Assembly (NCBI RefSeq): GCF_000424625.1
Contig: NZ_AUKG01000001.1
Location: forward strand, 2,232,001 to 2,296,000
Direction: 5' to 3'
Length of the DNA stretch: 64,000 bases
From: Conexibacter woesei Iso977N
GTDB taxonomy: Bacteria > Actinomycetota > Thermoleophilia > Solirubrobacterales > Solirubrobacteraceae
The position numbers and the translations under genes were made by a program. This document shows, piece after piece, positions 30,346-51,787 of this stretch. Below the pieces are notes generated by a model. The model was given only the letters and a program-made list of their open reading frames with translations, had not been told where the DNA came from and did no database searches. Positions within the stretch are counted from its first letter, which is position 1; each line of letters starts with the position of its first letter.

Positions 30346-30445
30346 CCGGGACGCCTACGGCCGCGCGATCGCGCTGTCCGGCAACGCCGCCGCGCGCGAC
30401 GAGCTGCGCCGGCGGCTCGTCGCGCTGTCGGGTTCCGGCGCCTAG
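30338..30445 (+). pseudogene. 3' remnant of an ECF42-type sigma factor (DUF6596 C-terminus)
   Basis: Only the last 35 or so codons remain, reading ARDAYGRAIALSGNAAARDE and on to TAG 30443. The AY.RA.aL..N.AeR..L.rRL pattern is the last TPR-like helix pair of ECF sigma factors with a DUF6596 tail. Everything upstream is replaced by the LLM remnant on the opposite strand. Its stop shares the CTAG palindrome with the stop of the convergent aldolase gene. Confidence 0.6.
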
Positions 30446-31344
30446 CTGCGGGCGTCGCGGAAGACGTCCACGAAGCGCAGGTAGTTGGTGGCGATCTGCT
30501 CGGCTGCGGCGTCGCGGTCGAGGGTCGACGCGAGGTGGGCGCGGACCGCGTCGCGCCAGATCGAGCGGCCGATCGCGAAGCCGGCGAAGCCGTCGGTGGC
30601 CGCCGCCGTGCGCAGCCAGTGGTCGACGCGGTCGTCCGGGGCTCCGGCGCCGAGGATCGTGCAGCGCACGTGCTCGCGGCCGGCGCCGGAACGGGCCTGC
30701 GTGGCGGCCTGCGCCGCGTCGGCGGGGTCGTCGAGGCCCTCGAGCTTCCAGATGTCGGGCTCGACGCCGGCGTCCTGCAGCGCGGCGATCGCGCGGACGA
30801 TCAGCGCCGGGCGCAGCTCGCGCACGAACCGCTCGCGGTCGCCGTCGACGGCCGCCAGCTGCGCCGCGGTCGGATCGACGATCAGCTCGAACAGGAACCG
30901 CCGGCCGGTCTCCTGCAACCACCCTGACAACTCGGCCAGGCGTGCTGCCTGCTCCGCGTTGCCGTCGCGGTCGCCGTCGGCGTTGTAGCGGACGAGCACC
31001 TTCGCGTAGTCGGGCTCGAACGCCGCGACGTGCGCGCGCCAGTCCGCGCCGTAGGCGAACGCGAACAGCTCGCGGTCGGGCATCTCGACCGGCATCACGA
31101 GCACGACCCCGTCGGCCCTGGCGTCGCGCGCGACGTCCGCGCCGTAGAGCTCGTCGACGAGGATGCCCGCCGTGCCGGCCGGGAGCGCGCGCCGCTGCGC
31201 CGCGCGCCGCACGCCGTCGTAGATCACCGACTTGGCGAGGACCATCTGCGTCTCCTGCTCCGGCGTCGGCTCGCCGGTGGTGTCGAAGATGGTGCGGGCG
31301 AAGACGCCGCGGTGGTCGAAGGCCAGGAGGAACATCGCCGTCAC
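30442..31344 (-). CDS. IolJ-like 2-deoxy-5-keto-gluconate-6-phosphate aldolase (DUF2090 family)
   Basis: A 300-residue TIM-barrel protein matching the DUF2090 aldolase that in many bacteria is fused behind IolC. Visible segments are LLAFDHRGVF at the start, GILVDELYG, LVMPVEMPDRE, FLFELIVDPT, and the C-terminal GFAIGRSIW phosphate-binding loop. It should split 5-dehydro-2-deoxygluconate 6-phosphate into dihydroxyacetone phosphate and malonate semialdehyde. GTG 31344 overlaps the iolA stop; it is last in the inositol operon. Here kinase and aldolase are separate genes. Confidence 0.85.
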   Translation of the reverse strand: MTAMFLLAFDHRGVFARTIFDTTGEPTPEQETQMVLAKSVIYDGVRRAAQRRALPAGTAGILVDELYGADVARDARADGVVLVMPVEMPDRELFAFAYGADWRAHVAAFEPDYAKVLVRYNADGDRDGNAEQAARLAELSGWLQETGRRFLFELIVDPTAAQLAAVDGDRERFVRELRPALIVRAIAALQDAGVEPDIWKLEGLDDPADAAQAATQARSGAGREHVRCTILGAGAPDDRVDHWLRTAAATDGFAGFAIGRSIWRDAVRAHLASTLDRDAAAEQIATNYLRFVDVFRDARS

Positions 31345-32831
31345 CGCTCCACGAAGTACGCGCCGGAGCCCTGACCGTCGGAGAACCAGCGACTGGTCAC
31401 GGTCTTCTTGCGGGTGAAGAACTCCACGGCGTCCGGCCCGTGGGCGTGGAGGTCGCCGAGGAACGAGTCCTTCCAGCCGCTGAACGGGAAGAACGCGACG
31501 GGCGCCGCGACGCCGATGTTGACGCCGACCATCCCGGCCTCGACGTCATGGCGGTAGCGCCGCACGGCCGCGCCCGACTCCGTGAAGATCGACGTGCCGT
31601 TACCGAACCGCGAGCCGTTGACGATCGCGATCGCCTCGTTCAGCGACGCGGCGCGCACCACCGTCAGGACGGGGCCGAAGACCTCCTCCCGGGCGATCGC
31701 CATCTCCGGCGTGACGCCGTCGAGGATCGTGGGGCCGACGAACGCGCCGGCCTCGTCCACGCCCTCGACCGCGCGGCCGTCGACGACGACCGACGCACCC
31801 GCGTCGACCGCCGCGTCGATCCACCCGCGGATGCGGTCGCGGGCCGCGCACGAGATCACGGGGCCGACGTCGGTCGTCGCCTGCGCGCCGTCGCCGACGC
31901 TCAGCGCGCGCGTCGCCTCGGTCAGCGGGCCCATCAGCGCCTCGTGCGCGTCGCCGACGGTCACGACGACCGAGCCCGCCATGCAGCGCTGGCCCGCGGC
32001 GCCGAACGCGCTGCCGATCAGCCCCGCGACGGTCTTGCCGATCACCGCGTCGGGCATGACCACCATGTGGTTCTTGGCCCCACCGAGCGCCTGCACGCGC
32101 TTGCCGGCCCTCGCCGCGCCCTCGTAGACGAGCTTGGCCACCGGCGCCGAGCCGACGAACGAGACCGCGTCGATGCCGGGGTGCTCGAGGATGCCCTCGA
32201 CGACCTCGCGCCCGCCGTTGACCAGGTTGACGACGCCGGGCGGCAGATCGAGCGCGTCGAGCACCTCGAACGCGATCTGCTGGGTCATCGGCACCTGCTC
32301 GCTCGGCTTCAAGATGAAGGTGTTGCCGCAGGCGATCGCGAACGGCAGGAACCAGAACGGCACCATCGCCGGGAAGTTGAACGGCGCGATCGCCGCGCAG
32401 ACGCCGACCGGCTGGCGGATCGTCTCGGCATCGATCCCGCGCGAGACGTCCTCGAGGATCCGGCCCTGCATCGTCGTCGGGATCGCGGTCGCCGCCTCGA
32501 CCATCTCGATCGCGCGAGCGACCTCGGCACGCGCGTCGCCGATCGTCTTGCCCATCTCGGCCGTGACGCTCTGGGCCATGTCCTCGGCGCGGGCGAGCAG
32601 GCCCTCGCGCAGCGCGAACAGCCGCCGCGCGCGCTCGATGACGTTGACGTCGCGCCACGCGGGCAGCGCCGCGCGGGCGGCGGCGACCGCGGCGTCGAGG
32701 TCGGCACGGCCGCTGAGCGGCACCCGCGCGAGCGTGGTCCCGGTCGCGGGGGCGACGACGTCGAGCACGCCCGCGGCGTCGGTGGCGGGCGCCCAGGCGC
32801 CGCCGATGTAGTTGTTCAGCAAGTCGGTCAT
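31341..32831 (-). CDS. iolA: Methylmalonate-semialdehyde dehydrogenase (CoA-acylating)
   Basis: A 496-residue aldehyde dehydrogenase. IGGAW near the N-terminus, PFNFPAMVPFWFLPFAIACG, the FVGSAPVAK cofactor segment, and catalytic Cys283 in AAGQRCMAGS are characteristic of MMSDH/IolA. It oxidises malonate semialdehyde from inositol breakdown to acetyl-CoA with loss of CO2. ATG 32831 overlaps the iolB stop (ATGA). Confidence 0.93.
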   Translation of the reverse strand: MTDLLNNYIGGAWAPATDAAGVLDVVAPATGTTLARVPLSGRADLDAAVAAARAALPAWRDVNVIERARRLFALREGLLARAEDMAQSVTAEMGKTIGDARAEVARAIEMVEAATAIPTTMQGRILEDVSRGIDAETIRQPVGVCAAIAPFNFPAMVPFWFLPFAIACGNTFILKPSEQVPMTQQIAFEVLDALDLPPGVVNLVNGGREVVEGILEHPGIDAVSFVGSAPVAKLVYEGAARAGKRVQALGGAKNHMVVMPDAVIGKTVAGLIGSAFGAAGQRCMAGSVVVTVGDAHEALMGPLTEATRALSVGDGAQATTDVGPVISCAARDRIRGWIDAAVDAGASVVVDGRAVEGVDEAGAFVGPTILDGVTPEMAIAREEVFGPVLTVVRAASLNEAIAIVNGSRFGNGTSIFTESGAAVRRYRHDVEAGMVGVNIGVAAPVAFFPFSGWKDSFLGDLHAHGPDAVEFFTRKKTVTSRWFSDGQGSGAYFVER

Positions 32832-33658
32832 AGGGAGAAGGGGAGGAGGGAAGGGTCGAGGGTCGCGCCGTCGGCACGCGTCCAGGCCAGCGCCGGGTCG
32901 TCCACGAACGCCCACTCGCGGCTCGGGCCGGCCATGGCGTTGAGGTAGTAGACGGCGACGCCGGGCGGTGCGGCGACCGCGTGGTAGCCGCGCGGGACGA
33001 GCACGACGTCGCGGTCGTGCACGGCCACGGTCTCGTCGAGCGAGCGGTCGTCGGTGTAGACGCGCTGGATGCCGAAGCCGGAGGCGGGGGCGACGCGGTG
33101 GTAGTACGTCTCCTCCAGGTAGGACTCGGCGGGCAGCGCGTCGCGGTCGTGCTTGTGCGGCGGGTAGCTGGACCAGTGCCCGGACGGCGTGATCACCTCG
33201 GTGACCAGCAGCCGCTCGGCCGCCGCGTTGTTCATCATGATGTTGCCGACGACCCGCTCGTGGGTGTCGTAGCCGCGCCGGACGACCTCGGTGTCGGCCG
33301 CGCGCAGCGGTCGCGCCGCGGTGCCGCGCTCGGCGGGCGCGGTGCAGATGCCGACCTCGGCGCCATCGCGGGCGCCCTCGACGACGTAGGTCGTCGACGG
33401 CGGCAGGTAGGCCGCCTCGGGCGGGCCCGAGAACGGGTCGGGCCGGCCGCCGAGGTCGCGCCACTCGCCGTGCTCGCTGCGCACGTGGATCGTGCCGCAG
33501 ACGACGACGACGCAGGCCTCGCGGTCGCCGGTCGCGCGCTCGATGGTGGCGCCGGGCGCCAGGCGCACGGCCTCGAAGCCGACGTAGGTCCAGCCGGCGG
33601 ACTCCGGGGTGACGACGATCGAGCCGTCGTCGGCGGGACGTTGCAGGATGGTGCTCAT
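32828..33658 (-). CDS. iolB: 5-deoxy-glucuronate isomerase
   Basis: A 276-residue double-cupin enzyme converting 5-deoxyglucuronate to 5-dehydro-2-deoxygluconate. The diagnostic PSGHWSSYPPHKHD segment provides metal ligands, with a following EETYYHRV and VPRGYHAV. The size is typical of IolB. ATG 33658 overlaps the iolD stop by ATGA. Confidence 0.94.
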   Translation of the reverse strand: MSTILQRPADDGSIVVTPESAGWTYVGFEAVRLAPGATIERATGDREACVVVVCGTIHVRSEHGEWRDLGGRPDPFSGPPEAAYLPPSTTYVVEGARDGAEVGICTAPAERGTAARPLRAADTEVVRRGYDTHERVVGNIMMNNAAAERLLVTEVITPSGHWSSYPPHKHDRDALPAESYLEETYYHRVAPASGFGIQRVYTDDRSLDETVAVHDRDVVLVPRGYHAVAAPPGVAVYYLNAMAGPSREWAFVDDPALAWTRADGATLDPSLLPFSL

Positions 33659-35586
33659 GCGGGACGGAGGTACGCGCGCTGCCGCTCGCGCTCGCGCTCG
33701 TAGCGCGCGCGGGCGGCGACGACCTCCGGGCGATCCGAGACGGCGGCGACCGGGACGTCCCACCAGCTCTCGTAGCCGCCGACGGTGTGGAAGCGGTCGA
33801 CCTCGACGTGGATCGCGACCGGGCCGTCGGCGCCGCGCGCGGCGGCCAGCGCGGCGCGCAGCTCGCCGAGCGAGCCGGCGCGCGTGACCGGCACGCCGAG
33901 GCTCGCGACGTTGGCGGCGAGGTCGACGGGCAGCGCGGGCGCGGGGGCGGCCAGCGCGTCGCCGGCCGCGTCGTCGAGGACGGGCGCGGTCGCGTCGCCG
34001 CCCTCGGGCACGCGGTGGTGGGTGCCGAACCCGGCGCCGCCGACCGACCGCGACAGCGCGCCGATCGAGGCGTAGCCGTGGTTCTGGATCAGCACGACGA
34101 CGATCCGCGCGCGCAGCGCGACGGCGGTCGCCAGCTCGCCGGGCGACATCAGGTAGCTGCCGTCGCCGACCAAGGCGTACACCTCGCGCTCGGGCGCGGC
34201 GAGCTTGACGCCGATCGCGCCCGGCAGCTCGTAGCCCATGCACGAGTACCCGTACTCGACGTGGTAGCCCTTGCCCGCCGGATCGCGCGCGACCCACAGC
34301 TTGTGGAGGTCGCCGGGCAGCGAGCCCGCCGCCTGGACGACGACGCCGGTCGCGCCCGCCGCGTCGTTGACGGCGCCGATGACCGCGGCCTGCGTCAGCG
34401 GCGCGTCCGGCCCGTCACCGACGCCCACGACGCGCGCGACCTCCTGGCCCCACGCGGCCCGCTCGGCCTCGGCGCGGGCGGTCCACTCCGGGTCGGCGGT
34501 GTGCGCGCCGAGCGCGGCGGCCAGCGCCTCCAGCGTGACGCGCGCGTCGCCGACCAGCTGCAACCCCGAGTGCTTGGCGGCGTCGAACGCGCAGACGTTG
34601 ACGTTGACGAAGCGCACGCCCGCGTCCTGGAACGCGGTCTTCGAGGCGGTGGTGAAGTCGCTCCAGCGCGTGCCGATCCCGATCACCAGGTCGGCCTCGC
34701 GCGCCAGCCGGTTGGCCGCGGCGGTGCCGGTGGCACCGATCGCCCCAAGGGCACCAACATGGTCGCTCGGCAGCGCGCCGCGGCCCGCGTGCGTCTCGCC
34801 GACGGGGATCCCGGTCGCCGTCACCAGCGCGCGCAGCGCCTCGCACGCGCGCGAGTAGATGACGCCGCCGCCCGCGACGATCAGCGGGCGCCGCGCCCCG
34901 GCGATCAGCTGCACCGCGCGCGCCAGCCCCTCGGGCGCCGGCGGCTGGCGCTGGACCAGCCACGTGCGCGGCTCCAGGAACGCGGCGTCGACCTCGACGA
35001 CCTCGGCCTGGACGTCCTGCGGCAGCGCCAGCGTCACCGCGCCGGTCTGCGCCGGATCGGTCAGGACGCGCATCGCCTCCAGCGCCGCCGGGACGATCTG
35101 CTCGGGCCGGGCGATCCGGTCGAAGTAGCGCGAGACCGGGCGCAGCGCGTCGTTGACCGACGCGGTCCCGTCGTGCTCGGCCTCCAGCCCCTGCAGGACC
35201 GGGTGCGGCGCGCGCGTGGCGAACGTGTCGCCGGGGAGCAGCAGCAGCGGCAGCCGGTTGATCGTCGCCAGCGCGGCGCCGGTCACGAGGTTCGTCGCGC
35301 CCGGGCCGACCGACGTCGTCACCGCGTAGGCGCCGAGGCGGTCGCGCTGGCGGGCGTAGCCGCAGGCGATGTGCGCCAGCGCCTGCTCGTTGCGACCCGG
35401 GATGTAGGGGAAGTCGTGGCGCGACGCGTACAGCGCCTCGCCCAGCCCGGCGACGTTGCCGTGGCCGAAGATGCCGAGGCAGCCCGCGAAGAACGGCGTC
35501 CGGACACCGTCGCGCTCGACGTGCTGGACGGCGAGGAACCGCACGAGCGCCTGTGCGACGGTCAGCCGCGCGCGATCGCCGCTCAC
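33655..35586 (-). CDS. iolD: 3D-(3,5/4)-trihydroxycyclohexane-1,2-dione acylhydrolase
   Basis: A 643-residue ThDP-dependent enzyme that opens the inositol-derived ring. The N-terminal ThDP domain has GCLGIFGHGNVAGLGEAL and the family's YIPGRNEQALAHIA with its glutamate. The C-terminal ThDP-binding motif is GDGSYLMSPGEL ... QNHGY. GTG 35586 is chosen because it overlaps the iolC stop (GTGA) and is followed at once by conserved sequence. Confidence 0.94.
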   Translation of the reverse strand: MSGDRARLTVAQALVRFLAVQHVERDGVRTPFFAGCLGIFGHGNVAGLGEALYASRHDFPYIPGRNEQALAHIACGYARQRDRLGAYAVTTSVGPGATNLVTGAALATINRLPLLLLPGDTFATRAPHPVLQGLEAEHDGTASVNDALRPVSRYFDRIARPEQIVPAALEAMRVLTDPAQTGAVTLALPQDVQAEVVEVDAAFLEPRTWLVQRQPPAPEGLARAVQLIAGARRPLIVAGGGVIYSRACEALRALVTATGIPVGETHAGRGALPSDHVGALGAIGATGTAAANRLAREADLVIGIGTRWSDFTTASKTAFQDAGVRFVNVNVCAFDAAKHSGLQLVGDARVTLEALAAALGAHTADPEWTARAEAERAAWGQEVARVVGVGDGPDAPLTQAAVIGAVNDAAGATGVVVQAAGSLPGDLHKLWVARDPAGKGYHVEYGYSCMGYELPGAIGVKLAAPEREVYALVGDGSYLMSPGELATAVALRARIVVVLIQNHGYASIGALSRSVGGAGFGTHHRVPEGGDATAPVLDDAAGDALAAPAPALPVDLAANVASLGVPVTRAGSLGELRAALAAARGADGPVAIHVEVDRFHTVGGYESWWDVPVAAVSDRPEVVAARARYERERERQRAYLRPA

Positions 35587-36530
35587 GCCGCCACCGCCGC
35601 GTCGCCGAGGTCGGCGAGGGTCGGCATCGCGTCGGCGCAGGCCAGGCGGCCGGCGACGAACGAGCCCGCGGCGTTGGCCAGCGCCACGCAGCGCTCCGGC
35701 GGCCAGCCCGCGAGCAGGCCGTGGCAGAGCGCGCCGCCGAACGCGTCGCCCGCGCCGAGGCCGTTGACGACCTGCACCGGCACCGGTGGGATGTCCCAGC
35801 GGCCGTCGCGCGTGGCGACCAGCACGCCGGCCGGGCCGCGCTTGACGACCGCGATCCGCACGCCGAGGCCGAGCAGCGCGTCGGCGGCGGCTTCGGGGTC
35901 GGAGGTGCCGACGGCGACCTCGACCTCCTCGCGATTGCCGACGGCGACCGAGGCGTAGGACAACGCCGCGCGCGCCTGCTCGCCCGCCTCGCGCGGGTCG
36001 GACCAGAACATCGGCCGGTGGTCGAGGTCGTGGACGATCAACGCGTCCGGGTCGGCCGCGCGGCGCGCGCGCAGCGCGGCCAGCGTCGCAGCACGCGACG
36101 GCTCGGCCGACAGGCCGGTCCCGGTCGTCCAGAGGATCCGCGCGCCGCGGATCGCGTCCAGCGGCAGCTCGCCCTCGTCCAGCTGGAGGTCCGGCGCGCT
36201 CGGCTCGCGGTAGAAGAGCAGCGGGAAGTGATCGGGCGGGCGGATCTCGCAGAAGGCGAGCGGCGTGCGCAGCGCCGGGTCGGTCCCGACGAAGCGCGCG
36301 TCGACGCCGAAGCCCTCCAGCGCGCGGCGGGCGTAGCGGCCGAACGCGTCGTCGCCGACCTTGGTGAGGACCGCAGAGCGGTTGCCGAGCCGCGCCGCGG
36401 CGACCGCGACGTTGGTGGGCGAGCCGCCGAGCGACTTGGCGAACGACGTGACGTCCTCGAGGCCGACGCCGGACTGCTGCGGGTAGAGGTCGACGCCGAT
36501 CCGGCCCATCGTGAGCAGGTCGAGCGTCAC
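35583..36530 (-). CDS. iolC: 5-dehydro-2-deoxygluconokinase (PfkB family)
   Basis: A 315-residue ribokinase-family sugar kinase. It begins LDLLTMGRIGVDLYPQQSG, characteristic of IolC, has the GGSPTNVAVAAARLG sugar-binding motif, and ends with the NGLGAGDAFGGA anion-hole/catalytic Asp motif. GTG 36530 overlaps the iolG stop. It lacks the C-terminal DUF2090 extension found in longer IolC proteins, which is encoded separately at the end of the operon. Confidence 0.93.
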   Translation of the reverse strand: MTLDLLTMGRIGVDLYPQQSGVGLEDVTSFAKSLGGSPTNVAVAAARLGNRSAVLTKVGDDAFGRYARRALEGFGVDARFVGTDPALRTPLAFCEIRPPDHFPLLFYREPSAPDLQLDEGELPLDAIRGARILWTTGTGLSAEPSRAATLAALRARRAADPDALIVHDLDHRPMFWSDPREAGEQARAALSYASVAVGNREEVEVAVGTSDPEAAADALLGLGVRIAVVKRGPAGVLVATRDGRWDIPPVPVQVVNGLGAGDAFGGALCHGLLAGWPPERCVALANAAGSFVAGRLACADAMPTLADLGDAAVAA

Positions 36531-37561
36531 CGGGCGACGACCTCGGCCTCGATCTCGGCGATCTCGACGCGCCGGCCCTCGACCCGCGAGCGCTGCGCAG
36601 CCATGCCGATGACGAGCGGCGCCCGGGCGTCGGCCAGGCCCGGCGAGCCGGGCGCGCCGGCACGGCAGGCGGCGACGAACGCCTCCCACTGCGCGACGTA
36701 GGCCGGCACGTAGCGGTCGAGGAAGAAGAACGGCAGCGGCGCCGTCGCGGTCCCGGCGGCCGAGCGCGTCAGCGCGGTGTGGGCGTGCGGGTTCTCCGAC
36801 GCCGCCATCCCGTGCTCGCCGTGGACCTCGACGCGCTGGTCGTAGCCGTAGGGCGCCTGGCGGCTGTTGTCGATCGCGGTCAGGCAGCCGTCGGCGTGCT
36901 CGAGCGTGACGATCGCGGTGTCGACGTCGCCGGCCTGCGCGAAGTCCGGCCGGATCCGCAGCGCGCCGTGCGCACTGACCGCCACGACCTCGCTGCCGGT
37001 CACGAACCGGGCCATGTCGAAGTCGTGGATCGTCATGTCCAGGAAGATCCCGCCGGACGTGCGCACGTAGTCCAGCGGCGGCGGTTCGGGGTCGCGGCTG
37101 GTGATCCGCACGAGGTGCGGCGCGCCGACCGCGCCGTCGACCACGGCCGCGCGGACCGCGGCGTGGGACGGGTCGAAGCGGCGGTTGAAGCCGATCTGGA
37201 ACGTCAGCGAGGCGGTGGCGACCGCGTCGAGCGCCGCGTCGACCGCGGCGAGGTCCAGCGACACGGGCTTCTCGCAGAAGATCGCCTTGCCCGCGGCGGC
37301 CGCGGCGAGGATCAGCTCGACGTGGGTGTCGGTGCTCGTGCAGATCGCGACCGCGTCGACGTCGTCGCGCCCGATCAACGCGTCGGCCGACGCGGTGGCC
37401 GGGACGCCGAGGTCGGCGGCGACCGCCGCGGCCGCCGGCGCGTGGGCGTCGGTCACCGCGGTCACGCGCGCGCCCGCGACGCGCCGGTGCAGCAGCTCGG
37501 CGTGCAGGCGGCCGATCCGGCCGGTGCCGATGACGCCGACGCGCAGCTCGCCGCCGCTCAT
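36527..37561 (-). CDS. iolG: Inositol 2-dehydrogenase (Gfo/Idh/MocA family)
   Basis: A 344-residue NAD(P)-dependent dehydrogenase. The N-terminal Rossmann motif is GVIGTGRIGRLHAE, the family EKP motif appears in FCEKPVSLD, and DMTIHDFDMARFV gives the catalytic Asp/His region typical of inositol dehydrogenases. It oxidises myo-inositol to 2-keto-inositol (scyllo-inosose). ATGA overlap with iolE. Confidence 0.9.
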   Translation of the reverse strand: MSGGELRVGVIGTGRIGRLHAELLHRRVAGARVTAVTDAHAPAAAAVAADLGVPATASADALIGRDDVDAVAICTSTDTHVELILAAAAAGKAIFCEKPVSLDLAAVDAALDAVATASLTFQIGFNRRFDPSHAAVRAAVVDGAVGAPHLVRITSRDPEPPPLDYVRTSGGIFLDMTIHDFDMARFVTGSEVVAVSAHGALRIRPDFAQAGDVDTAIVTLEHADGCLTAIDNSRQAPYGYDQRVEVHGEHGMAASENPHAHTALTRSAAGTATAPLPFFFLDRYVPAYVAQWEAFVAACRAGAPGSPGLADARAPLVIGMAAQRSRVEGRRVEIAEIEAEVVAR

Positions 37562-38451
37562 CGTGCGCCCACCGGCAGCGACGCCAGGAAGTCCAGGCTC
37601 CGCTGCGCGTCGCGCACCGGGCCCTCGCCCGGAGCGGGGACGGCGCCGGTGATCGCGCAGTCCTGCTCGAGGACGAGCCAGCCGTCGTAGCCGCGCGCGT
37701 CGAGCGCGGCGACCAGCTCGGCGATCCGCGCGTCGCCGCTGCCCAGCGGCCGGAACAGCCCGGCCTGGACGGCGGCCATCAGCGTCAGCTCGCCGGCGTT
37801 GAGACGGTCGGCGACCGCGAGGTCGACGTCCTTGAGGTGGACGTGCGCGACCCGCTCGCCCCAGGTGTCGATGAAGTCGATCGGGTCATAGCCGCCGAGC
37901 GCGAGGTGGCCGGGGTCCAGGCACCAGGCGACCGCGCTCAGCTCCGCGAGGCGGTCGACGTCGGCGCGGCGCTCGATCAGCGTGCCCTGGTGCGGGTGCA
38001 CGACGGTCGTCAGCCCGAGCGCCGCGGTGGTGTCGGCGACGGCGTCGACGCCGGCGGCGAGCGCCGCCCAGCCCGCGTCGTCCAGCGGCTCGGGGGCCGA
38101 CCACGCGGCGTCCTGGACGATCGCCAGCACGAACACGGAGGCGCCGGCGTCGGCCATCGCCGACGCGACCCGCTGCGCCTGCTCCAGCGCCGCGGCATGG
38201 TGCTCACGGTCGTGGAGGACGAGCGGCACGAAGCCGCCGAGCAGCCGCAGGCCGTGGCGCTGCGTCGCGGCGCGGATCTCCGCGGCGTCGAGCGGCAGCC
38301 AGTCGTCGACGGGGCCGAGCTCGGTGGCGGTCAGCCCGAGGCCCGCCATCTCGCCGAACACACGGTCCGGCGGGAGCATCGCGCCCCATCCGGGGACCTC
38401 GCAGACCCCCCACGTGATGGGCGCCCCGGCAAGCTGGCGATCGGTCGACAT
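37558..38451 (-). CDS. iolE: myo-inosose-2 dehydratase
   Basis: A 297-residue AP-endonuclease-2-like TIM-barrel protein beginning APITWGVCEVPGWG, the usual IolE start, with metal-site segments VVHPHQGTLIE, CLDPGHLALGG and HVHLKD. It dehydrates 2-keto-myo-inositol. It is the first gene of a seven-gene operon. No ribosome site precedes ATG 38451, and a predicted -10 ends 8 nt upstream, which suggests leaderless translation. Confidence 0.92.
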   Translation of the reverse strand: MSTDRQLAGAPITWGVCEVPGWGAMLPPDRVFGEMAGLGLTATELGPVDDWLPLDAAEIRAATQRHGLRLLGGFVPLVLHDREHHAAALEQAQRVASAMADAGASVFVLAIVQDAAWSAPEPLDDAGWAALAAGVDAVADTTAALGLTTVVHPHQGTLIERRADVDRLAELSAVAWCLDPGHLALGGYDPIDFIDTWGERVAHVHLKDVDLAVADRLNAGELTLMAAVQAGLFRPLGSGDARIAELVAALDARGYDGWLVLEQDCAITGAVPAPGEGPVRDAQRSLDFLASLPVGAR

Positions 38452-38459
38452 GGCTCGGC

Positions 38460-38488: not shown

Positions 38489-38490
38489 CA

Positions 38491-38514
38491 AATTCGCACA
38501 AATTCATGTTCGAA
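38491..38514. promoter_or_regulatory. Candidate DeoR-family operator in the iol/deoR intergenic region
   Basis: AATTCG at 38491, AATTCA at 38501 and ATGTTCGAA at 38506-38514 recur at about 10-bp steps, one helical turn. ATGTTCGA resembles the half-site of E. coli GlpR, a DeoR-family protein. The block covers the predicted deoR core promoter and lies just upstream of the iol -35. Related GTTCGA repeats occur at 47023-47050. Confidence 0.5.
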
Positions 38515-41571: not shown

Positions 41572-41593
41572 ACACACGGAGGAGGAGTTGTTG

Positions 41594-42937: not shown

Positions 42938-42941
42938 GTCC

Positions 42942-43880: not shown

Positions 43881-44695
43881 CCAGCCGCCGCGAGCAGTCG
43901 CTGACCTACACCTTGCTCGGCGTGTTCTCGCTGATCGCGCTACTGCCGATCGTCGGGATCGTGCTGACCGCGCTGCAGCAGAAGGGCGGCGGCGCGTCGT
44001 TCGGCTCGTTCGACGGGCTGCACTTCGACAACTTCAAGCGCGCCTGGCAGGACGGCAACTTCGGGACCTACCTGAAGTCCTCGGTGATCGTCGCGGTCGC
44101 CGTCGTCGGGCTGTCGACGATCGTCTCGATCCTGGCCGGCTACGCGTTCGGCCTGATGCGGTTCCGCTTCGCCCAGCCGCTGTTCTACCTGTTCCTGCTC
44201 GGCCTGATGGTGCCGATGGAGGCGATGATCGTCCCGCTGTACTACGACCTGCGCGACCTCCAGCTGACCGACACCTACTGGGCGCTGATCCTCCCGCAGG
44301 CCGGGACGTCGATCGCCTTCGGGACCTTCTGGATGCGCGCCTTCTTCCGCTCGGTGCCGCAGTCGCTGGTCGAGGCGGCGCGGATCGACGGCGCGTCGAG
44401 CTGGTTCACGCTCTGGCGCGTCCTGCTCCCGCTCGCGCGGCCCGCGGTCCTGACGATGGTCGTGCTGCTGTTCATGTGGACCTGGAACGAGTTCCTGCTG
44501 GCGCTCGTCATGGTGACCGACGAGAACCTGCGCACCGCGCCGCTGGGTCTCAGCTTCTTCATCGGCCGCAACCAGGCCGACCTCACGCTGCTGGCGGCGG
44601 GCGCCGTGATCGTCGCCCTGCCGGTGGTCGTGTTGTACGTGTTCCTCCAGCGCCATTTCATCCGGGGCATGGTCTCGGGTGCCGTGAAGGGGTAG
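43877..44695 (+). CDS. Sugar ABC transporter permease 2 (MalG/UgpE-like)
   Basis: A 272-residue permease with six helices and the EAA loop SLVEAARIDGASSWFTLWRV. The C-terminus FLQRHFIRGMVSGAVKG is the usual MalG-type end that inserts into the ATPase dimer. It overlaps permease 1 and lies 3 nt before the ATPase gene. Confidence 0.93.
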   Translation: MTSRREQSLTYTLLGVFSLIALLPIVGIVLTALQQKGGGASFGSFDGLHFDNFKRAWQDGNFGTYLKSSVIVAVAVVGLSTIVSILAGYAFGLMRFRFAQPLFYLFLLGLMVPMEAMIVPLYYDLRDLQLTDTYWALILPQAGTSIAFGTFWMRAFFRSVPQSLVEAARIDGASSWFTLWRVLLPLARPAVLTMVVLLFMWTWNEFLLALVMVTDENLRTAPLGLSFFIGRNQADLTLLAAGAVIVALPVVVLYVFLQRHFIRGMVSGAVKG

Positions 44696-44698
44696 TCG

Positions 44699-45799
44699 AT
44701 GGGTGCAGTTCGCTTCAGCCAGGTGCGCAAGTCCTATGCCGGCCACGAGGTCGTCCACGGGCTCGACCTGGAGATCGCCGACGGCGAGTTCATGGTGTTG
44801 GTCGGGCCCTCGGGCTCCGGCAAGACGACCGCGCTGCGGATGCTCGCGGGCCTGGAGTCGATCACCGCCGGCGAGATCCGGATCGGCGACCGCGTGGTCA
44901 ACGCGATCGCCCCGCGCGAGCGCGACATCGCGATGGTCTTCCAGGACTACGCGCTGTACCCGCAGATGACGGTCTTCGACAACCTCGCCTTCGGGCTGCG
45001 GCGCCGCAGGACGCCCAAGGAGGAGATCGAGCGCCGGGTCCGCTCCGCCGCCGCGTCGCTGGACCTCGAGCCCTACCTGGAGCGCAAGCCCGGGCAGCTG
45101 TCCGGCGGCCAGGCCCAGCGCGTCGCGCTCGGCCGCGCGCTGGTCCGCGACCCGCAGGTCTTCCTGATGGACGAGCCGCTGTCGAACCTCGACGCCAAGC
45201 TGCGCACGCAGACGCGCGGGGAGATCAAGCGCCTGCAGCAGGACGTCCGCACGACCACGGTCTACGTCACCCACGACCAGGTCGAGGCGATGACGATGGG
45301 CGACCGGATCGCGGTGATGAACGACGGCGTCCTGGAGCAGGTCGGCACGCCCGAGGAGCTCTACGAGCGCCCGGCCAACGTGTTCGTCGGCGGCTTCATC
45401 GGCTCGCCCGCGATGAGCTTCCTGACGATGGCGGCCGAGCCGGCGGGCGCCGGCGCGACGCGGCTGCGCTGCGACGGGGTGGACCTCGTGGTGCCGGGCG
45501 TCGAGGGGCTGCCCGGCGAGGTCGTCGTCGGCGTGCGCCCCGAGTGCGCGCGCCCCTGGGACCCGGAGCATCCGGCGCTGCTCGGGCCGATCGCCGGCGA
45601 GGTCGCCTACGTCGAGGCGCTGGGCCGCGAGACGTTCGTCGGCGTCGACGTCGGCGGCGACCGCGTCGTCGTCCAGCACGAGGGCCGCGCGTCGCTGCTG
45701 CCCGGCGACCGCGTCGAGTTCGGCGTCCAGCCCGCCGCGCTGCGCTTCTTCGACGTGGCCGACGGCCGCGCGCTGCACGCCGCGCGGGTCGCGGCGTGA
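44699..45799 (+). CDS. Sugar ABC transporter ATP-binding protein (MsmK/UgpC/MalK-like)
   Basis: A 366-residue ATPase with Walker A GPSGSGKTT, signature LSGGQAQRVALGRAL, Walker B VFLMDEPLSNLDAKLR and a C-terminal TOBE/OB regulatory domain (VGVRPECARPW). In many Actinobacteria one MsiK ATPase serves several CUT1 importers; here the operon has its own. It overlaps the SIS gene by GTGA. Confidence 0.93.
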   Translation: MGAVRFSQVRKSYAGHEVVHGLDLEIADGEFMVLVGPSGSGKTTALRMLAGLESITAGEIRIGDRVVNAIAPRERDIAMVFQDYALYPQMTVFDNLAFGLRRRRTPKEEIERRVRSAAASLDLEPYLERKPGQLSGGQAQRVALGRALVRDPQVFLMDEPLSNLDAKLRTQTRGEIKRLQQDVRTTTVYVTHDQVEAMTMGDRIAVMNDGVLEQVGTPEELYERPANVFVGGFIGSPAMSFLTMAAEPAGAGATRLRCDGVDLVVPGVEGLPGEVVVGVRPECARPWDPEHPALLGPIAGEVAYVEALGRETFVGVDVGGDRVVVQHEGRASLLPGDRVEFGVQPAALRFFDVADGRALHAARVAA

Positions 45800-46851
45800 G
45801 CGCCGCGGCCGCCGTCCTGCGCGAGGAGATCGGCGGCCAGCCGGCCGTCTGGCGCGCTCTGGTGGCGCGCGGCGCGCAGGTCGCGGAGGTCGCGGCCGCG
45901 CTGGACGCGCTGGATCCGCCACTGGTCAGGATCGCGGCGCACGGAACCTCCGACCACGCCGGGATCTACGCGACCTACCTGCTGCGCGCGCTGCGCGGGT
46001 GGACGGTCGTGCGCGACTCGATGTCGATGCCGTTGTACTACGGGTCGCCCGCCGCACGGCCCGGCGAGCTGGCGGTCGGCATCTCCCAGTCGGGCGAGAC
46101 GCCCGACGTCGTGGCCTGGCTGGAGCGCGCCGGCCGCGAGGGCGCGACGACGCTGGCGATCACCAACGGCGAGGGCTCGTCGCTGGCGCGGATCGCCGAC
46201 CACGTGCTGGCGATCGGCGCGGGCGCCGAGCGCTCGATCGCGGCGACCAAGACCTACACCGGCACGCTCGCGGCGATCGCGCTGCTCGCCGGGCAGCTCG
46301 CGGGCCGCGGGCCCCAGCTGGCCGACGCGCTCGTCGCGACCGCCGACGCCGCCGACGCGCTGCTGGACGGGCTCGACGCGGCCGTCGCGCCGGTCGCCGC
46401 GGCGCTCGCGCGGATCGACCGCATGTACTTGGTCGCCCGCGGGATCGAGCTGGCGACGGCCAACGAGGTCGCGCTCAAGCTGACCGAGGTCTGCTACCTC
46501 GGCGCCAAGGCGATGTCGGCGACCGCGATGGCCCACGGGCCGGTCGCCGCGCTCGACGCCGACGTGCCGCTGTGGGCGATCGCCGCGCCGGACGCGACGC
46601 TGCCCGCGGTCGCCGAGGCGGTGCGCCGGGCCCGCGCGGCGGGCGCGCCGGTGATCGCCTCGGGCCCCGCCGCCGCGGCGCTGGACGGCGCGGCGTTCGC
46701 GCTCCCCGTGCCGGTGGTGCCCGCCGAGCCGCTGCTGTCGCCGCTGCTCTCGGTCCTGCCGGGCCAGGCGTTCGCCTGGGCGCTGGCAGGCGCCAAGGGG
46801 ATCGACGCCGGCGCGCCGCGCCACCTGCGCAAGGTCACCTCCGCAGCTTGA
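45796..46851 (+). CDS. SIS-domain sugar isomerase/deaminase (NagB-II / GlmS-C type)
   Basis: A 351-residue protein with two SIS domains. Visible motifs are AHGTSDHAG, GISQSGETPD, AATKTYTGTLAAIALLA, VARGIELATANEVALKLTE and the C-terminal DAGAPRHLRKVTSAA, the pattern of GlmS isomerase domains and NagB-II glucosamine-6-phosphate deaminases. No glutaminase domain is present, so synthesis by GlmS is excluded and deamination/isomerisation is likely. Its product would be fructose 6-phosphate if the substrate is glucosamine 6-phosphate (inference). Last gene of the operon, followed by a hairpin. Confidence 0.85.
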   Translation: MSAAAAVLREEIGGQPAVWRALVARGAQVAEVAAALDALDPPLVRIAAHGTSDHAGIYATYLLRALRGWTVVRDSMSMPLYYGSPAARPGELAVGISQSGETPDVVAWLERAGREGATTLAITNGEGSSLARIADHVLAIGAGAERSIAATKTYTGTLAAIALLAGQLAGRGPQLADALVATADAADALLDGLDAAVAPVAAALARIDRMYLVARGIELATANEVALKLTEVCYLGAKAMSATAMAHGPVAALDADVPLWAIAAPDATLPAVAEAVRRARAAGAPVIASGPAAAALDGAAFALPVPVVPAEPLLSPLLSVLPGQAFAWALAGAKGIDAGAPRHLRKVTSAA

Positions 46852-46854
46852 TCG

Positions 46855-47006: not shown

Positions 47007-47022
47007 CCTCGCGCGTCTTGTT

Positions 47023-47050
47023 GTTCGAACTCGTTCGAAAATGTGTTCGA
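47023..47050 (+). promoter_or_regulatory. Three GTTCGA direct repeats, candidate DeoR operator
   Basis: GTTCGA occurs at 47023, 47033 and 47045. The first two are in palindromic context (GTTCGAAC, GTTCGAAA) and the last is ATGTGTTCGA. Spacing of 10 and 12 bp puts them on nearly one face of the helix, just downstream of the predicted start point, where a bound repressor would block elongation. The same half-site is found at 38508 beside the first deoR gene. Confidence 0.6.
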
Positions 47051-47082
47051 GTGGTGGGAACTTGTCCAACGGAGGGAGTGGC

Positions 47083-50000
47083 GTGCAGCGCTATTTCGTG
47101 GGTCTGGTCGCGATGGTCGCGATCATGCTGGGGGCGGTGGGGACGGCGAGCGCCGCTCCCGCTTCGACGTACACGGCATCCAAGGCCGTGAAGATCAACG
47201 TCATGGGTGAGTGGGCTCACCCCGACGACGACACGAGCATCATCGGGCCGTGCGGCGTGTGGCATGCGCGCTACGGCGTCAAGTGCGGGATCATCATGGT
47301 CACCCGCGGTGAGGGCGGCGGCAACGGCGCCGGCACCGAGATCGGACCCGACCTGGGGCTGCGGCGCGAGAACGAGGACCGCGTCGCCCACTACCGGTCG
47401 GGCACCGTCGACATCTTCAACCTCGACCGCGTCGACTTCTTCTACAACTTGTCGGCGCCGCTGACGCAGCTGTTCTGGAACGAGAACGAGACGCTGCGCC
47501 GCATCACGCGCATCATCCGGATGACGCAGCCCGACATCTACATCGGGTTCAACCCGACGATCCAGGGCGCGGGCCACGGCAACCACCAGCAGGCCGGGCG
47601 CTTCATCTGGGAGGGCATCAAGGCCGCGGCCGACCCGAACATGTTCCCCGAGCAGCTCACGGGCCCCAACGCCCTGAGCACCTGGCAGGTCAAGAAGGCC
47701 TTCTCGGGCGGCTCGACCACCGGCACCGGCGGCAACGTCAACGCCGCGAGCTGCACCACGGGCTTCGTCCCGGCCGCGACGAACGTCGACACGGTCGCGG
47801 GCGTCTGGACCGGCTACGACTCGCCCTACAAGTGGGCCGCGGGCAACGTCCAGGGCAAGCCGGCCGGCTCGGCCAAGACCTGGGCACAGGTCGCCGCCGA
47901 GAACCAGAGGGCCTACCCGACGCAGAGCCGCACGCAGACGCAGACGGCGGCCGACCCCGGCTGCTCGCGCTTCGGCCAGACCTACGCGCGCGTCCCGTTC
48001 CAGCCGAACACCACGACGCCGGGCGGCAGCACCGCCAACACGGCGGCGGGCAGGGACGACGCGATCCTCTACGGCGCGGCCGTGCAGGATCCGGGCGGGT
48101 TCCCGCTCGGGACGCAGGAGTACCTGACGTTCTCGAAGTTCTACAACGTGCCGGGCCAGCCGTTCACGGCGACCCTGCACCTCAGGTCCGGCGGCGCGAC
48201 GATCGCGGCGCAGACGGGCGGCGTCGCGCTGACGGTGCCCGCGGGCTGGACCGTCGACGGGCCCAAGAACCTGCCCGCGACGACGTCGGGCACCGAGACG
48301 ACGGTGGACTTCACGGTCACGCCGCCGGCCTCGGTCGCGACGCTGGACGGCAACTACAAGATCGCGGCGCAGGTCAGCTCCGGCTCCGCGACCGGCTACA
48401 CCGACAACGCGGTCCGCGTCGTCTCCCCGGTCGAGGGCCGCATGCAGCGCTGGGGCACCTGGGCCGAGTACGACAACTGGGTCGACAACACCGCGCCCGA
48501 CGCGCGCCGTCTCGGCCGCTCGCAGGCCCTGCAGTCGATCGGGCTGGGGGAGACCAAGGCGATCACGGTGCGCGTGCACAACTGGTCGACGACCGTGCAG
48601 AGCGGTGACGTCTCGCTGACGGCGCCGTCCGGCTACTCGGTCACGCCGGCGACGCGCTCCTACAGCGCGCTGGCGGCGGGCCAGGAGACCACGGTCAGCT
48701 TCGACGTGACGAGCACCGCCTCGTCGCTGCCGGCCAACCAGGTCTCGACGTTCACCATCAACACGACCCACGACCAGCCGTCGACCGACACGTCGACGGA
48801 GTCGATGACGATGGCCGTCGTCCCGACGACGACGATCCCGAAGGCCACCGGGGCACCGGCGGTCGACGCGGTCGAGGGCGGCGACTACACCGGTCCCACG
48901 CTCGACCTCGGCCGGGTCTGGGAAGGTGCGGCCTGCGCGCCGGACGGCACGGACTGCGGCACCGGCAGCTACGCCAAGGTCACGCACACCGACGACGACC
49001 TGTACTTCTTCGTGCATGTCGTCGACGAGTTCCAGAGCTACGCGGCCACGCCGAAGGAGTGCGTCGCGCACTGGCTCGCGGACTCGGTCGAGCTGCTGGT
49101 CGACCCGCGCGGCAACGCCAACGTCAACGGCCGCGAGACGGCCAACACCTTCAAGTTGGGGGTGTTCCCGTTCACCAACGACCCGACCGGGTCCAACGGC
49201 AACGGCGTCAACGGCCCGTGCTGGTCGCGTGACGCCGACAACCACCAGGGCTACTCGACCGGGCCGCTGGCGTCCACGGTCAACCAGGGCCCGAACGCCC
49301 CGGGCGTGCAGGTCGCGTCCTCGGCGACGTGGGTCGGGTCCAACTCGACCGCCGTCGACCACTCCTACACGGGTGGCGCCTACAACCTGGAGGTGAAGAT
49401 CCCGATCGCCGACCTCCCGGCCGCGATCGACCCGGACAACTTCACCTTCAACATCACGCCCTACGACAACGACAACAACGCGGCCGTGGCCGGCGGCGAC
49501 CTGCGTCACATCGACGTCGGTCAGAGCCGGCTCGCCTGGTCGAGCATCGGCGGCGTGCAGGCTGCGCCGTACCGCTGGGGCCGGGCCAGGGTCCTGAACT
49601 ACACGCCGCCGGCGGGCCAGCCGACGACGGCGCCGGACCCGATCGTCTCCAGCTCCAACCTGGACGGCACGAAGTCGCCGCAGACGATCTGGCAGTCGGC
49701 CCGCAACGGCGTGCCGATCGCCGGCCGGACGCCCGCTCCGGCAAGCAACCGGTTGACGATCGACAACGTCAGGCTGGCCGGCGACGGCGCGGACCTGGAC
49801 ATCACGTCGACCGGCACCGGTACCGCGCGCGTGTACCTGTGGTCGGGGCTGACCGGTGCGATCCCGGTGTTCACCAGCAGCTGCGCGGCGCCGACGGCGT
49901 CGAGCACGATGGAGGAGCTCATCAGCTACGGCCTCGACGCGTGCAGCGCCACCGACGGTGGCTACCCCGCGTGGGGCAGCGACCAGAGCGGGCGCGTGAT

Positions 50001-50871
50001 CGCGTCGCAGGCGGTCTCGGTGACCGCCGGCACGCAGCACGTCCACGTCGCGCTCGACGCGGCCGGGCGGGCGAAGCTCGCCAAGGACGGCGCGGCGCTG
50101 GTCTCGTACCTGACGCCCGACGATGAGGTCCAGGCGTTCGACCTGCCGCTGGCCCAGGCCAGGCTGACGGTCGGCATCGGCGACGTCGGCGACGCCGACG
50201 AGCCGAGCCAGGTCGAGCTGCGGGCGCGGCTGACCGGCACCGATCCCTTCCCGGGCGCGGTGACCGGCACGGTCCAGTTCAAGGTCGACGGCCAGGACGT
50301 GGGTGCGCCGGTCAAGGTCGACGCGCAGGGCCGTGCGTCGCTGGCGACCGATGCGGTCACCGAGGCCAAGGGCCACGCGGTCACCGCCGTCTACAGCGGC
50401 GACGGCGACTACGCGACCCGGACGGCGACCTACACGGCGCCGGTCGACGCCGGCCCGGCGGGTCCCGCCGGTCCGGAGGGTCCGGCCGGCCCCGCGGGGC
50501 CGCAGGGCTCCACCGGTCCGGCCGGCCCGATCGGGCCCGTCGGTCCCGTGGGCCCGAAGGGCGCCAAGGGCGACAAGGGGTCGAAGGTGCTCATCACCGT
50601 CAGCTGCTCGGCGAGCGGCAGGACGGCCAAGTGCACCGTCAAGGAGGTCGGCGCGACGGCCAGGAGCAGCAAGGTCCGCGCGTCGGTGCGCCTCCAGTAC
50701 GCCAAGTCGACCGTGACGCGCACGGGGCGCGGCACGGTCAAGGTGTCGCTGAGGACGAAGCAGCGGATGGGCAGGACCCAGAAGCTCGTCGTCCGCGTCA
50801 CCAAGGACGGCAGGACGGTCAGCGCGACCGTCACGGCGGGCAAGCGCGCGCCCACCGTCTCGATCGGCTAG
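47083..50871 (+). CDS. Secreted PIG-L family deacetylase with NEW3-like, CBM9-like and collagen-like regions
   Basis: A 1262-residue exported protein. GTG 47083 has GGAGGGAG upstream and starts a signal peptide (cleavage near SAA/PAS). The PIG-L catalytic domain (about 36-330) has WAHPDDD (44-50) and GHGNHQ near 165-170, the zinc-binding Asp/His set. A NEW3-like beta domain, a CBM9-like domain near 590-840 (GRVWEGAA ... [12 protein letters not shown]), further beta modules including a Big_3-type Ig, 15 Gly-X-Y triplets and a basic C-terminal domain follow. PIG-L enzymes remove acetyl from N-acetylglucosamine-type sugars, MshB being one example. No sortase motif is seen. Confidence 0.88.
50452..50586 (+). 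repeat. Collagen-like Gly-X-Y repeat, 15 triplets
   Basis: Forty-five codons encode uninterrupted Gly-X-Y, mostly GPA/GPV early and [12 protein letters not shown] at the end. The Pro-rich then charged composition fits a short triple-helix stalk that would trimerise the deacetylase. Confidence 0.9.
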
Positions 50872-50878
50872 CCGGTCT

Positions 50879-50908
50879 CGGGAGGGGCGTCTCCTCACGC
50901 CCCTCCCG
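50879..50908 (+). terminator. Strong hairpin after the PIG-L gene
   Basis: GGGAGGGGCGT (50880-50890) pairs perfectly with ACGCCCCTCCC (50897-50907) around CTCCTC; a further C-G pair closes the stem at 50879/50908. It begins 8 nt past the stop codon. No T tract follows. Confidence 0.75.
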
Positions 50909-50931
50909 GCCGCGTCGATCGGATCGGAATC

Positions 50932-50960
50932 GCGGGCCCGGCGAAGGTCGCCGGGCCCGC
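50932..50960 (+). terminator. Second strong hairpin before the deoR gene
   Basis: GCGGGCCCGGCGA (50932-50944) pairs without mismatch with TCGCCGGGCCCGC (50948-50960) around a 3-nt loop. With the previous hairpin it makes a double stem-loop between the PIG-L gene and deoR 2. Confidence 0.65.
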
Positions 50961-51010
50961 CGCTCCGTCTGCTAGAAGTCACGCTGAATGATCGAAGCTG
51001 CTCGCCGCCT

Positions 51011-51787
51011 GTGACCTCTGCGCCCGGGACCCGTCACACCATTCCGGCCCAGCGCCGTCAGGAGATCCTCCGGGCGATCCGCGGCGGCGCCACGCACGTC
51101 TCCCAGCTCGCGCAGAGCTTCGGCGTGTCGGAGATGACCGTGCGGCGCGACCTCGACGAGCTCGCCCGCGACGGCCACATCGAGCGCGTGCGCGGCGGTG
51201 CCGTCACCGTCAGCGCCGAGCCGCCGTTCGGCCAGACGCTGATCGAGCGCTACGACGAGAAGAACGCCATCGGCGCCGCGGCCGCCGCGCTGGTCGAGGA
51301 CGGCCAGACCGTCATGATCGACATCGGCACCACGACGCTGCAGGCGGCACGCCACCTGCACGGGCGCACGCTCACGGTCGTCACCTCGAGCCTCGCGGTC
51401 TACGAGGAGCTCATGCCCTACGAGACGATCGAGCTGATCCTGCCCGGCGGGACCGTGCGCCGCAACTACCAGTCGCTGGTCGGCATCCTCGCCGAGGGCG
51501 CGCTGCGCCAGCTCAAGGCCGACGTCCTGTTCCTCGGGACCAGCGCCATCGACGCCCGCTTCGATGTCTGGGACTCGACCATGGTCGAGGTGCCGATCAA
51601 GCGCGCGATGATCGAGGCGGCCGCCGAGGTCGTCCTGCTCGCGGACTCGGCGAAGTTCTCGATGGCCGGCCTGGTCCGCGTCTGCGAGGCGAGCGCGATC
51701 CAGCGCCTCGTCACCGACACGCCGCCGCCCGCCGCGGCCGCCGCGGCGGCCGAGCGGGCCGGCGTAACGATCACGATCGCGGCTTGA
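51011..51787 (+). CDS. DeoR/GlpR-family transcriptional regulator (2)
   Basis: A 258-residue DeoR protein. HTH VSEMTVRRDLDELARDGHIE matches the regulator at 38577 through the recognition helix; the sensor domain has DIGTTTLQAARHL, LPGGTVRRNYQS and FLGTSAID. GTG 51011 follows the double hairpin by 50 nt. Its 3' end overlaps the convergent dehydrogenase gene by 17 nt. It probably controls the PIG-L gene, the importer operon or both (inference). Confidence 0.92.
   Translation: MTSAPGTRHTIPAQRRQEILRAIRGGATHVSQLAQSFGVSEMTVRRDLDELARDGHIERVRGGAVTVSAEPPFGQTLIERYDEKNAIGAAAAALVEDGQTVMIDIGTTTLQAARHLHGRTLTVVTSSLAVYEELMPYETIELILPGGTVRRNYQSLVGILAEGALRQLKADVLFLGTSAIDARFDVWDSTMVEVPIKRAMIEAAAEVVLLADSAKFSMAGLVRVCEASAIQRLVTDTPPPAAAAAAAERAGVTITIAA

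Follow-up and report, generated by a model that had tools for sequence, protein, structure and literature searches.

In a 64,000-nucleotide stretch of the genome of the soil actinobacterium Conexibacter woesei Iso977N (contig NZ_AUKG01000001.1, positions 2,232,001-2,296,000; hereafter the window, whose own numbering is used throughout), an inositol catabolic (iol) operon lies divergent from an operon that encodes a DeoR-family regulator, a glycoside hydrolase family 4 (GH4) enzyme, a PfkB kinase, a CUT1 sugar importer and a SIS-domain protein. Genes for a secreted multidomain PIG-L protein and a second DeoR regulator follow 3' of the SIS gene. All gene calls were checked, and this layout, which an initial annotation of the stretch had claimed, was confirmed. 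That the linkage of amino-sugar and inositol genes is more than chance is strongly supported by their adjacency, their phyletic profile and a shared promoter motif. Glucosaminyl-inositol is the core common to mycothiol, glycosylphosphatidylinositol (GPI) anchors and many inositol sphingolipids of plants and fungi, and we propose, with a probability of somewhat under 60%, that the locus encodes a catabolic pathway for a hexosamine-inositol conjugate of this kind, an alpha-linked N-acyl-glucosaminyl-inositol.

The gene families, their adjacency, their co-occurrence and the motif are read directly from sequence; from these we infer the substrate class, and the precise compound and each enzymatic step are put forward as predictions. 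The secreted PIG-L protein would strip the N-acyl group outside the cell, and the CUT1 lipoprotein and its ATP-binding cassette (ABC) importer would take up the glucosaminyl-inositol glycoside. The PfkB kinase would then phosphorylate the amino sugar at C6, and GH4, acting as an NAD/Mn-type 6-phospho-alpha-glycosidase, would yield glucosamine-6-phosphate and inositol. The SIS enzyme would deaminate glucosamine-6-phosphate to fructose-6-phosphate, and the inositol would pass through IolG, IolE, IolD, IolB and IolC, an aldolase and IolA. The DeoR proteins would control the set at TTCGAA-type sites.

In a sample of 201 genomes of the order, a protein search with the window GH4 (E <1e-60) identified 13 genomes. 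The iolD gene (TIGR04377) was found in 27 of the 201, comprising all 13 GH4 genomes as against 14 of the 188 without GH4 (Fisher's test, 2e-13). Because the GH4 genomes are related, this value overstates their independence, and the cautious figure is the one at genus level, where iolD occurs in 12 of 51 genera, all 4 GH4 genera included (p 0.002). The PIG-L catalytic domain (E <1e-30) was present in 11 of the 13 GH4 genomes and in none of the 188 others, the two without it being G144 and G173.

Approximately 39 kb was fetched around the GH4 gene of 12 relatives, and the window proteins were mapped onto these stretches. PIG-L lies within 12 kb of GH4 in 10 of the 12. The locus of one genome (G182) resembles the window, another (G113) has only iolE and iolG nearby, with iolD elsewhere in the genome, and two (G042 and G090) carry a rearranged iol set with a diverged PIG-L gene upstream of deoR-GH4. 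Six genomes of a single genus (g15) have PIG-L divergent from deoR-GH4 and no SIS or iol match within the fetched stretch. In G144 and G173, GH4-PfkB is accompanied by iolD, IolE-like and IolG/levoglucosan-dehydrogenase-like genes, an aldehyde dehydrogenase and an HpaI-type aldolase, and a peptide-type ABC transporter replaces CUT1 (by the Pfam matches SBP_bac_5, OppC_N and oligo_HPY in G173, by clustering in G144); a SIS gene is present in the G173 locus. The iolD loci of these two genomes (L037 in G144, L039 and L040 in G173) have no iolB or iolC match nearby, with a 2-hydroxyacid-dehydrogenase-like gene in G144, and possibly represent a different lower inositol route.

The same partnership is found in different arrangements in distant actinobacteria, which makes an accidental link unlikely. 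A scan of named genomes supplied the best 80 GH4 loci, although more exist; together with the 12 relatives and the window, and less the duplicates L041 (from the same genome as G042) and G179 (whose locus is like that of G119), these give 91 listed loci, counts from which are lower bounds because some loci are cut by contig ends. DeoR adjoins GH4 in 45 of them, a CUT1 solute-binding protein of the window kind is found in 44 and PIG-L in 28. Genes of the iol set lie within 12.5 kb in 16 of the 91, that is, in 13 of the 28 loci with PIG-L nearby versus 3 of the 63 without. Four Actinomadura species (harenae, oligospora, roseirufa and barringtoniae) carry iolG-E-C-B-D after PIG-L, beside a DeoR-GH4-PfkB-importer-PIG-L set, with a GntR-type gene between PIG-L and the iol set in the loci read. 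As their GH4s are 48-50% identical to that of the window and their gene order differs from that in Conexibacter, this is not one preserved block. On a GH4 tree, from which 7 of 86 rows were dropped (L041, G179 and those under 400 aa), the label for iol genes nearby needs at least 4 changes among the 31 labelled rows, of which 16 have iol genes close by and 15 have PIG-L alone; the count leaves aside 48 unlabelled rows. A. chibensis (L184) and A. syzygii (L183) have a separate iolE-C-B-D set without an iolG match, and in these two species an iolG adjoins PIG-L (L062 and L073).

Among 45 genomes hand-picked from the 79 other named loci, iolD was found in 41, comprising 18 of 18 with PIG-L near GH4 (one a partial match under the cut-off) and 23 of 27 without. 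In a sample of the phylum, where iolD occurs in 59 of 396 genomes, it accompanies 12 of 12 strong GH4s (at least 440 bits), which count as only two genera, and at genus level it is found in 6 of 14 GH4 genera versus 36 of 236 overall (p 0.01). Streptomyces was rejected as a test of co-occurrence, since both genes are nearly universal there (GH4 in 148 of 150 genomes, iolD in 146 of 150); the 12 strong GH4s reduce to two genera for the same reason.

The promoter motif links the GH4 operon with PIG-L. TTCGAA was the top-enriched hexamer in the deoR and PIG-L promoters of the Conexibacter-family set, where it occurs in 14 of 24 regions versus 3 of 134 others (p 3e-11); the test covered the 174 of 2080 hexamers found in at least 5 target regions and left out G179. 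In the window, the motif stands at 38509-38514, in the divergent intergenic region between iolE and deoR1, and twice before PIG-L (47024-47029 and 47034-47039) in the direct repeat GTTCGAActcGTTCGAA (47023-47039, plus strand), which is the only perfect copy in the Iso977N genome; it is not present before deoR2. A genome scan allowing up to two mismatches found one perfect site for the doubled motif GTTCGAAnnnGTTCGAA, that before PIG-L. A further site, with one mismatch, lies 24 kb ahead of the window and directly follows a MarR-like gene (by eye); nothing of relevance was noticed there. Among three iolE/deoR-side promoters compared, only in the window does the shared motif cover the iol promoter. 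This distribution makes it likely that the GH4 operon and PIG-L are under joint control, and control of iol by the same protein, in the window, is only suggested. The regulators themselves, deoR1 (38577-39338, plus strand; PF00455/PF08220; GTG start preceded by AAGGAG, by eye) and deoR2 (51011-51787, plus strand), are 59.5% identical and not near-identical, as they had initially been described.

The iol operon (30442-38451, minus strand) runs in window order through an aldolase-like gene, iolA, iolB, iolD, iolC, iolG and iolE. Four of its products exceed NCBIfam equivalog cut-offs, namely the 5-deoxy-glucuronate isomerase IolB (32828-33658; TIGR04378, 315.8 bits, cut-off 205), the trihydroxycyclohexane-1,2-dione hydrolase IolD (33655-35586; 824.7 bits, cut-off 715), the 5-dehydro-2-deoxygluconokinase IolC (35583-36530; TIGR04382, 377.9 bits, cut-off 300) and the inositol 2-dehydrogenase IolG (36527-37561; TIGR04380, 409.8 bits, cut-off 355). 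IolA (31341-32831), a CoA-acylating (methyl)malonate-semialdehyde dehydrogenase (MMSDH), exceeds a subfamily cut-off (TIGR01722, 561 bits, cut-off 448.5). The inosose dehydratase-like IolE (37558-38451) is named from its operon position, with only 152.2 bits against TIGR04379 (cut-off 290), and the 5-keto-2-deoxy-phosphogluconate aldolase-like product (30442-31344) matches positions 361-561 of NF047869, the aldolase half of myo_kin_aldol, at 60.9 bits, far under the cut-off of 600. The set thus resembles the canonical myo-inositol operon, with IolG-E-D-B-C, an aldolase-like gene and IolA, but differs in its position next to a glycoside-uptake operon and in containing no transporter gene, as expected if inositol is released within the cell. 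Directly beyond the aldolase-like gene, a luciferase-like monooxygenase can be read at 29927-30441 in its later portion alone (PF00296 profile positions 171-241 of 314), possibly a gene remnant.

The divergent operon (38577-46851, plus strand) is compact, its genes from deoR1 to SIS overlapping or separated by gaps of at most 16 bases. Its GH4 (39335-40678) has both the N- and C-terminal domains of the family (PF02056, 161 bits; PF11975, 159.9 bits) and carries the motif C165-D-S-P, which by comparison with PDB entries is of the phospho-alpha-glucosidase type: the phospho-alpha-glucosidases 1u8x and 6dux read CDMP, whereas the phospho-beta-glucosidases 1s6y and 5c3m read CNVP. Each of 12 aligned GH4s carries CDSP. 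Of the 80 named loci, CD[STA]P was read in at least 60 and CDSA or CDAH in 17, with 3 left unread. We take the aspartate of the C-D-x-P motif to mark alpha enzymes, and the window GH4 is accordingly predicted to act on an alpha link, as in glucosaminyl-alpha-inositol. The order first proposed for the two enzymes, GH4 and then kinase, is better reversed: the nearest solved relatives of GH4 are 6-phospho-glycosidases, and PfkB kinases that act on glycosides exist, so the putative sugar or glycoside kinase (40675-41571; PF00294, 115.6 bits), whose PDB relatives include the PfkB acarbose kinases, probably acts before GH4. A structure of GH4 was also predicted (predicted local distance difference test, pLDDT, 70.1).

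Although the best NCBIfam name for this GH4 is an alpha-galactosidase (PRK15076, 187.8 bits, cut-off 486), galactinol and other alpha-galactosides were rejected as substrates, as the window enzyme is without the CHSV motif carried by the host's second GH4; a MelA-type reading would moreover leave PIG-L and SIS without a role. That second GH4 lies elsewhere in the host genome (L162, contig C4, 320000-338000), where a SIS gene, a solute-binding protein gene, two permease genes and an ATPase gene face GH4 (CHSV)-PfkB-PfkB-DeoR (DeoR, binding protein and transporter genes by eye), and its locus appears to encode a distinct pathway for a galactoside or galactosamine.

A further reading is a chitosan or chitin oligosaccharide operon, like csn of Streptomyces, beside an unrelated iol operon. 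The csnREFGHK cluster likewise joins a CUT1 importer, a GH4 and a kinase in a regulated unit, as described in two papers (PMC6097792, PMC5635096). In addition, the best weak match of the window's binding protein is NgcE, chitobiose deacetylases share the PIG-L fold, and the top PDB scores of GH4 are phospho-beta enzymes. Chitosan is, however, beta-linked, and a csn-type cluster of Streptomyces G223 (L160, recognised by gene order), the one example read, comprises ROK, binding protein, permeases, GH4 and kinase genes without PIG-L, SIS or iol. Where L160 has a ROK regulator, a BadF/BadG-type kinase (PF01869) and a GH4 motif of CNVA, the window has DeoR, PfkB and CDSP, and G223 itself also carries the window's GH4 family with CDSP in a DeoR-GH4-GH38 locus (L163). 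With regulator, kinase and GH4 motif all different, the window operon does not resemble csn; chitosan, which the initial annotation had named as an alternative, fits badly, and we judge this reading very unlikely.

The PIG-L gene (47083-50871, plus strand) encodes a protein of 1262 aa from a GTG at 47083, with GGAGGG before the start and a signal-peptide-like N-terminus (all by eye). The product is a putative secreted LmbE-type N-deacetylase or amidase (PF02585, 53.6 bits, cut-off 28.2) with NEW3, CBM9-like and collagen-like parts. Its HPDD and HGNH motifs are retained in every one of 30 PIG-L proteins compared, a set that includes two from duplicate loci, and match the published LmbE metal-ligand rule, HXDD plus H (PMC4101496). 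In a profile search of the PDB, the highest-ranking match with a known function was MshB (E 3e-7, versus 3e-5 to 8e-4 for chitobiose deacetylases); LnmX, whose function is unassigned, scored above it. The mycothiol enzymes MshB and Mca, which act on N-acetylglucosaminyl-inositol (GlcNAc-inositol) or N-acetylcysteinyl-glucosaminyl-inositol, share with the window protein the PIG-L fold and metal site. The latter differs in being secreted, multidomain and part of a catabolic cluster, and falls far under the MshB and Mca cut-offs; at 22.2 bits against 224.35 for TIGR03445 it is not an MshB equivalog. A predicted model (pLDDT 70.5) confirms the LmbE fold and points to neither MshB nor diacetylchitobiose deacetylase over the other.

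The importer comprises a CUT1 solute-binding lipoprotein (41588-42937, plus strand, as are the genes that follow; PF01547; lipobox-like LAAGC, by eye), for which the GlcNAc/chitobiose binder NgcE is the best but weak NCBIfam match (TIGR03851, 65.4 bits, cut-off 399.65), a UgpA/MalF-like permease (42942-43880), a GlcU/UgpE/MalG-like permease (43877-44695) and a UgpC-type ABC ATPase (44699-45799; NF008653, 447.8 bits, cut-off 432). The SIS protein (45796-46851; PF01380) is a putative amino-sugar-phosphate deaminase or isomerase related to NagB-II and GlmS (NF001484, GlmS-type, 191.3 bits, cut-off 381; PDB relatives 7kqa, 3fj1 and 8eol). As a family label, the NagB-II of the initial annotation is not supported by the score (NF046059, 157.6 bits, cut-off 430). 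Amino-sugar operons of the aga and nag type have a DeoR regulator and a SIS or NagB-type deaminase. The window cluster shares these features but lacks a phosphotransferase system, NagA and the tagatose-phosphate branch, and has GH4 and a secreted PIG-L instead.

This resemblance raises the question of alpha-linked galactosamine polymers, such as fungal galactosaminogalactan or bacterial Pel, with an AgaS-like SIS protein and iol as a neighbour of convenience. The DeoR protein is near AgaR (170.9 bits, cut-off 260), the GH4 motif is of the alpha type, PIG-L enzymes deacetylate amino sugars, and the CBM9-like and NEW3 parts of PIG-L would suit a polymer. Linkage to iol nevertheless recurs across several lineages, the cluster has neither a tagatose-bisphosphate aldolase nor a second PfkB, and galactosides are better suited by the host's other GH4 locus, that with CHSV and two PfkB genes opposite an importer and SIS; we therefore consider a galactosamine polymer improbable.

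Several observations weigh against a glucosaminyl-inositol substrate. With respect to linkage, iolD lies away from GH4 in 7 of the 13 genomes of the order that carry GH4 (the six of g15 and G113), no iol gene is near in 15 of the 28 listed PIG-L loci, and in the phylum sample the weaker GH4s are accompanied by iolD in only 4 of 14. The iol genes occur in 48% of Actinobacteria species, according to one survey (PMC9430895), and with iol so common the co-occurrence partly reflects large catabolic genomes. A SIS gene is near GH4 in only 6 of the 91 listed loci. TTCGAA does not occur in the iolE promoter of either G113 or G182 and was found in 0 of 36 DeoR-side regions outside the Conexibacter family, which rules it out as a wider operator. 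With respect to the enzymes, the top PDB scores of GH4 belong to phospho-beta enzymes (227.9 and 226.5 bits), slightly over the phospho-alpha 1u8x (219.3), so that it is the motif that carries the alpha prediction, and CDMP is also read in 6wbt, an entry named as a cellulase. Searched as a single sequence, the window PIG-L matches LnmX and also a chitobiose deacetylase (E 0.51), and misses MshB; NCBIfam ranks BshB1 over MshB, both far under cut-off; Foldseek with the PIG-L model ranks BshB, LnmX and chitobiose deacetylases over MshB; and VIA-align ties MshB and chitobiose deacetylase at Z 18.6 each. Glucosamine is already free in mature GPI, so a deacetylase is not needed there. Finally, the alpha-mannosidase links of some GH4 relatives, described below, fit mannosylated glucosaminyl-inositol but also plain mannosides.

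Another account would be two independent operons, one for free inositol and one for an unrelated glycoside, with no common substrate. It agrees with the lack of iol genes near GH4 in the six g15 genomes and with the wide distribution of iol (PMC9430895), but iolD in 13 of 13 versus 14 of 188 genomes and the repeated adjacency in different gene orders leave it little probability. The proposal of one pathway for an amino-sugar-inositol conjugate, which the initial annotation had made, is supported by the iolD and PIG-L profiles, the iol adjacency in other lineages and the alpha-type GH4 motif; for its exact substrate there are candidates, given below.

Alpha-mannosidases accompany some of the related loci. 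A GH38 alpha-mannosidase gene follows GH4 in L042, L043, L076 and L101, and a secreted-looking GH76 is encoded inside the operon of three Actinomadura. Two Streptomyces loci, L043 and L163, have the order DeoR-GH4-GH38, and L043 also has GH29 fucosidase and GH2 genes nearby. 'N-glycan processing locus 2' of C. acnes similarly groups a GH4 of unassigned activity with sugar-importer genes and GH38, GH125 and GH20 genes; the available part of the source gives no beta-mannosidase candidate, places a ROK kinase in its legend and names no iol, PIG-L or SIS (PMC6160142). Such loci, together with the alpha-type GH4 motif, would suit a mannosyl-inositol pathway, in which mannosylated inositols (phosphatidylinositol mannosides, lipomannan or fungal mannosyl inositol phosphorylceramide) would be cleaved by GH4 as a phospho-alpha-mannosidase, with PIG-L and SIS handling a side chain. 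On the other hand, PIG-L is near GH4 in 28 of the 91 listed loci as against 7 matched by GH38 and GH76 queries (GH92 and GH125 were not sought), and no mannosidase is encoded in the window cluster, whereas a SIS protein of the amino-sugar-phosphate type is; we consider this pathway unlikely. The mannosidase genes may instead point to mannosylated cores of the glucosaminyl-inositol substrate.

Candidate substrates for the proposed glucosaminyl-inositol pathway are actinobacterial mycothiol or GlcNAc-inositol, and head groups of fungal or plant GPI or glycosyl inositol phosphorylceramide (GIPC), an inositol sphingolipid. Mannosylated glucosaminyl-inositol, as in GPI and fungal GIPC cores, would explain the GH38 and GH76 neighbours and the C. 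acnes locus. Mycothiol would explain a PIG-L amidase activity and a gene beside GH4 in G144: L037:2545-3648, adjoining GH4-PfkB, encodes an L-cysteine desulfhydrase resembling Cds1 (598.5 bits against a cut-off of 600). The host genome has no MshC over the cut-off (best match 282.4 of 485.1 bits, probably CysS); self-made mycothiol as food was rejected on this ground, and the mycothiol would come from other organisms.

The initial annotation knew of no described pathway with this gene set, and likewise we found none in our searches of the open-access literature. Nor did those searches, outside which most subscription papers lie, yield a paper describing bacterial breakdown of glucosaminyl-inositol. 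Tentatively, we suggest that a so far undescribed pathway, shared among Actinobacteria, harvests the glucosaminyl-alpha-inositol core of mycothiol, GPI anchors and GIPC head groups by means of a secreted PIG-L amidase, a disaccharide kinase, a GH4 of new specificity (6-phospho-alpha-glucosaminyl-inositol hydrolase) and iol, to which some lineages add alpha-mannosidases for mannosylated cores. If true, this would provide a breakdown route for glucosaminyl-inositol in soil and a new GH4 specificity, give a function to secreted PIG-L proteins and supply a genomic marker of the trait in Actinobacteria.

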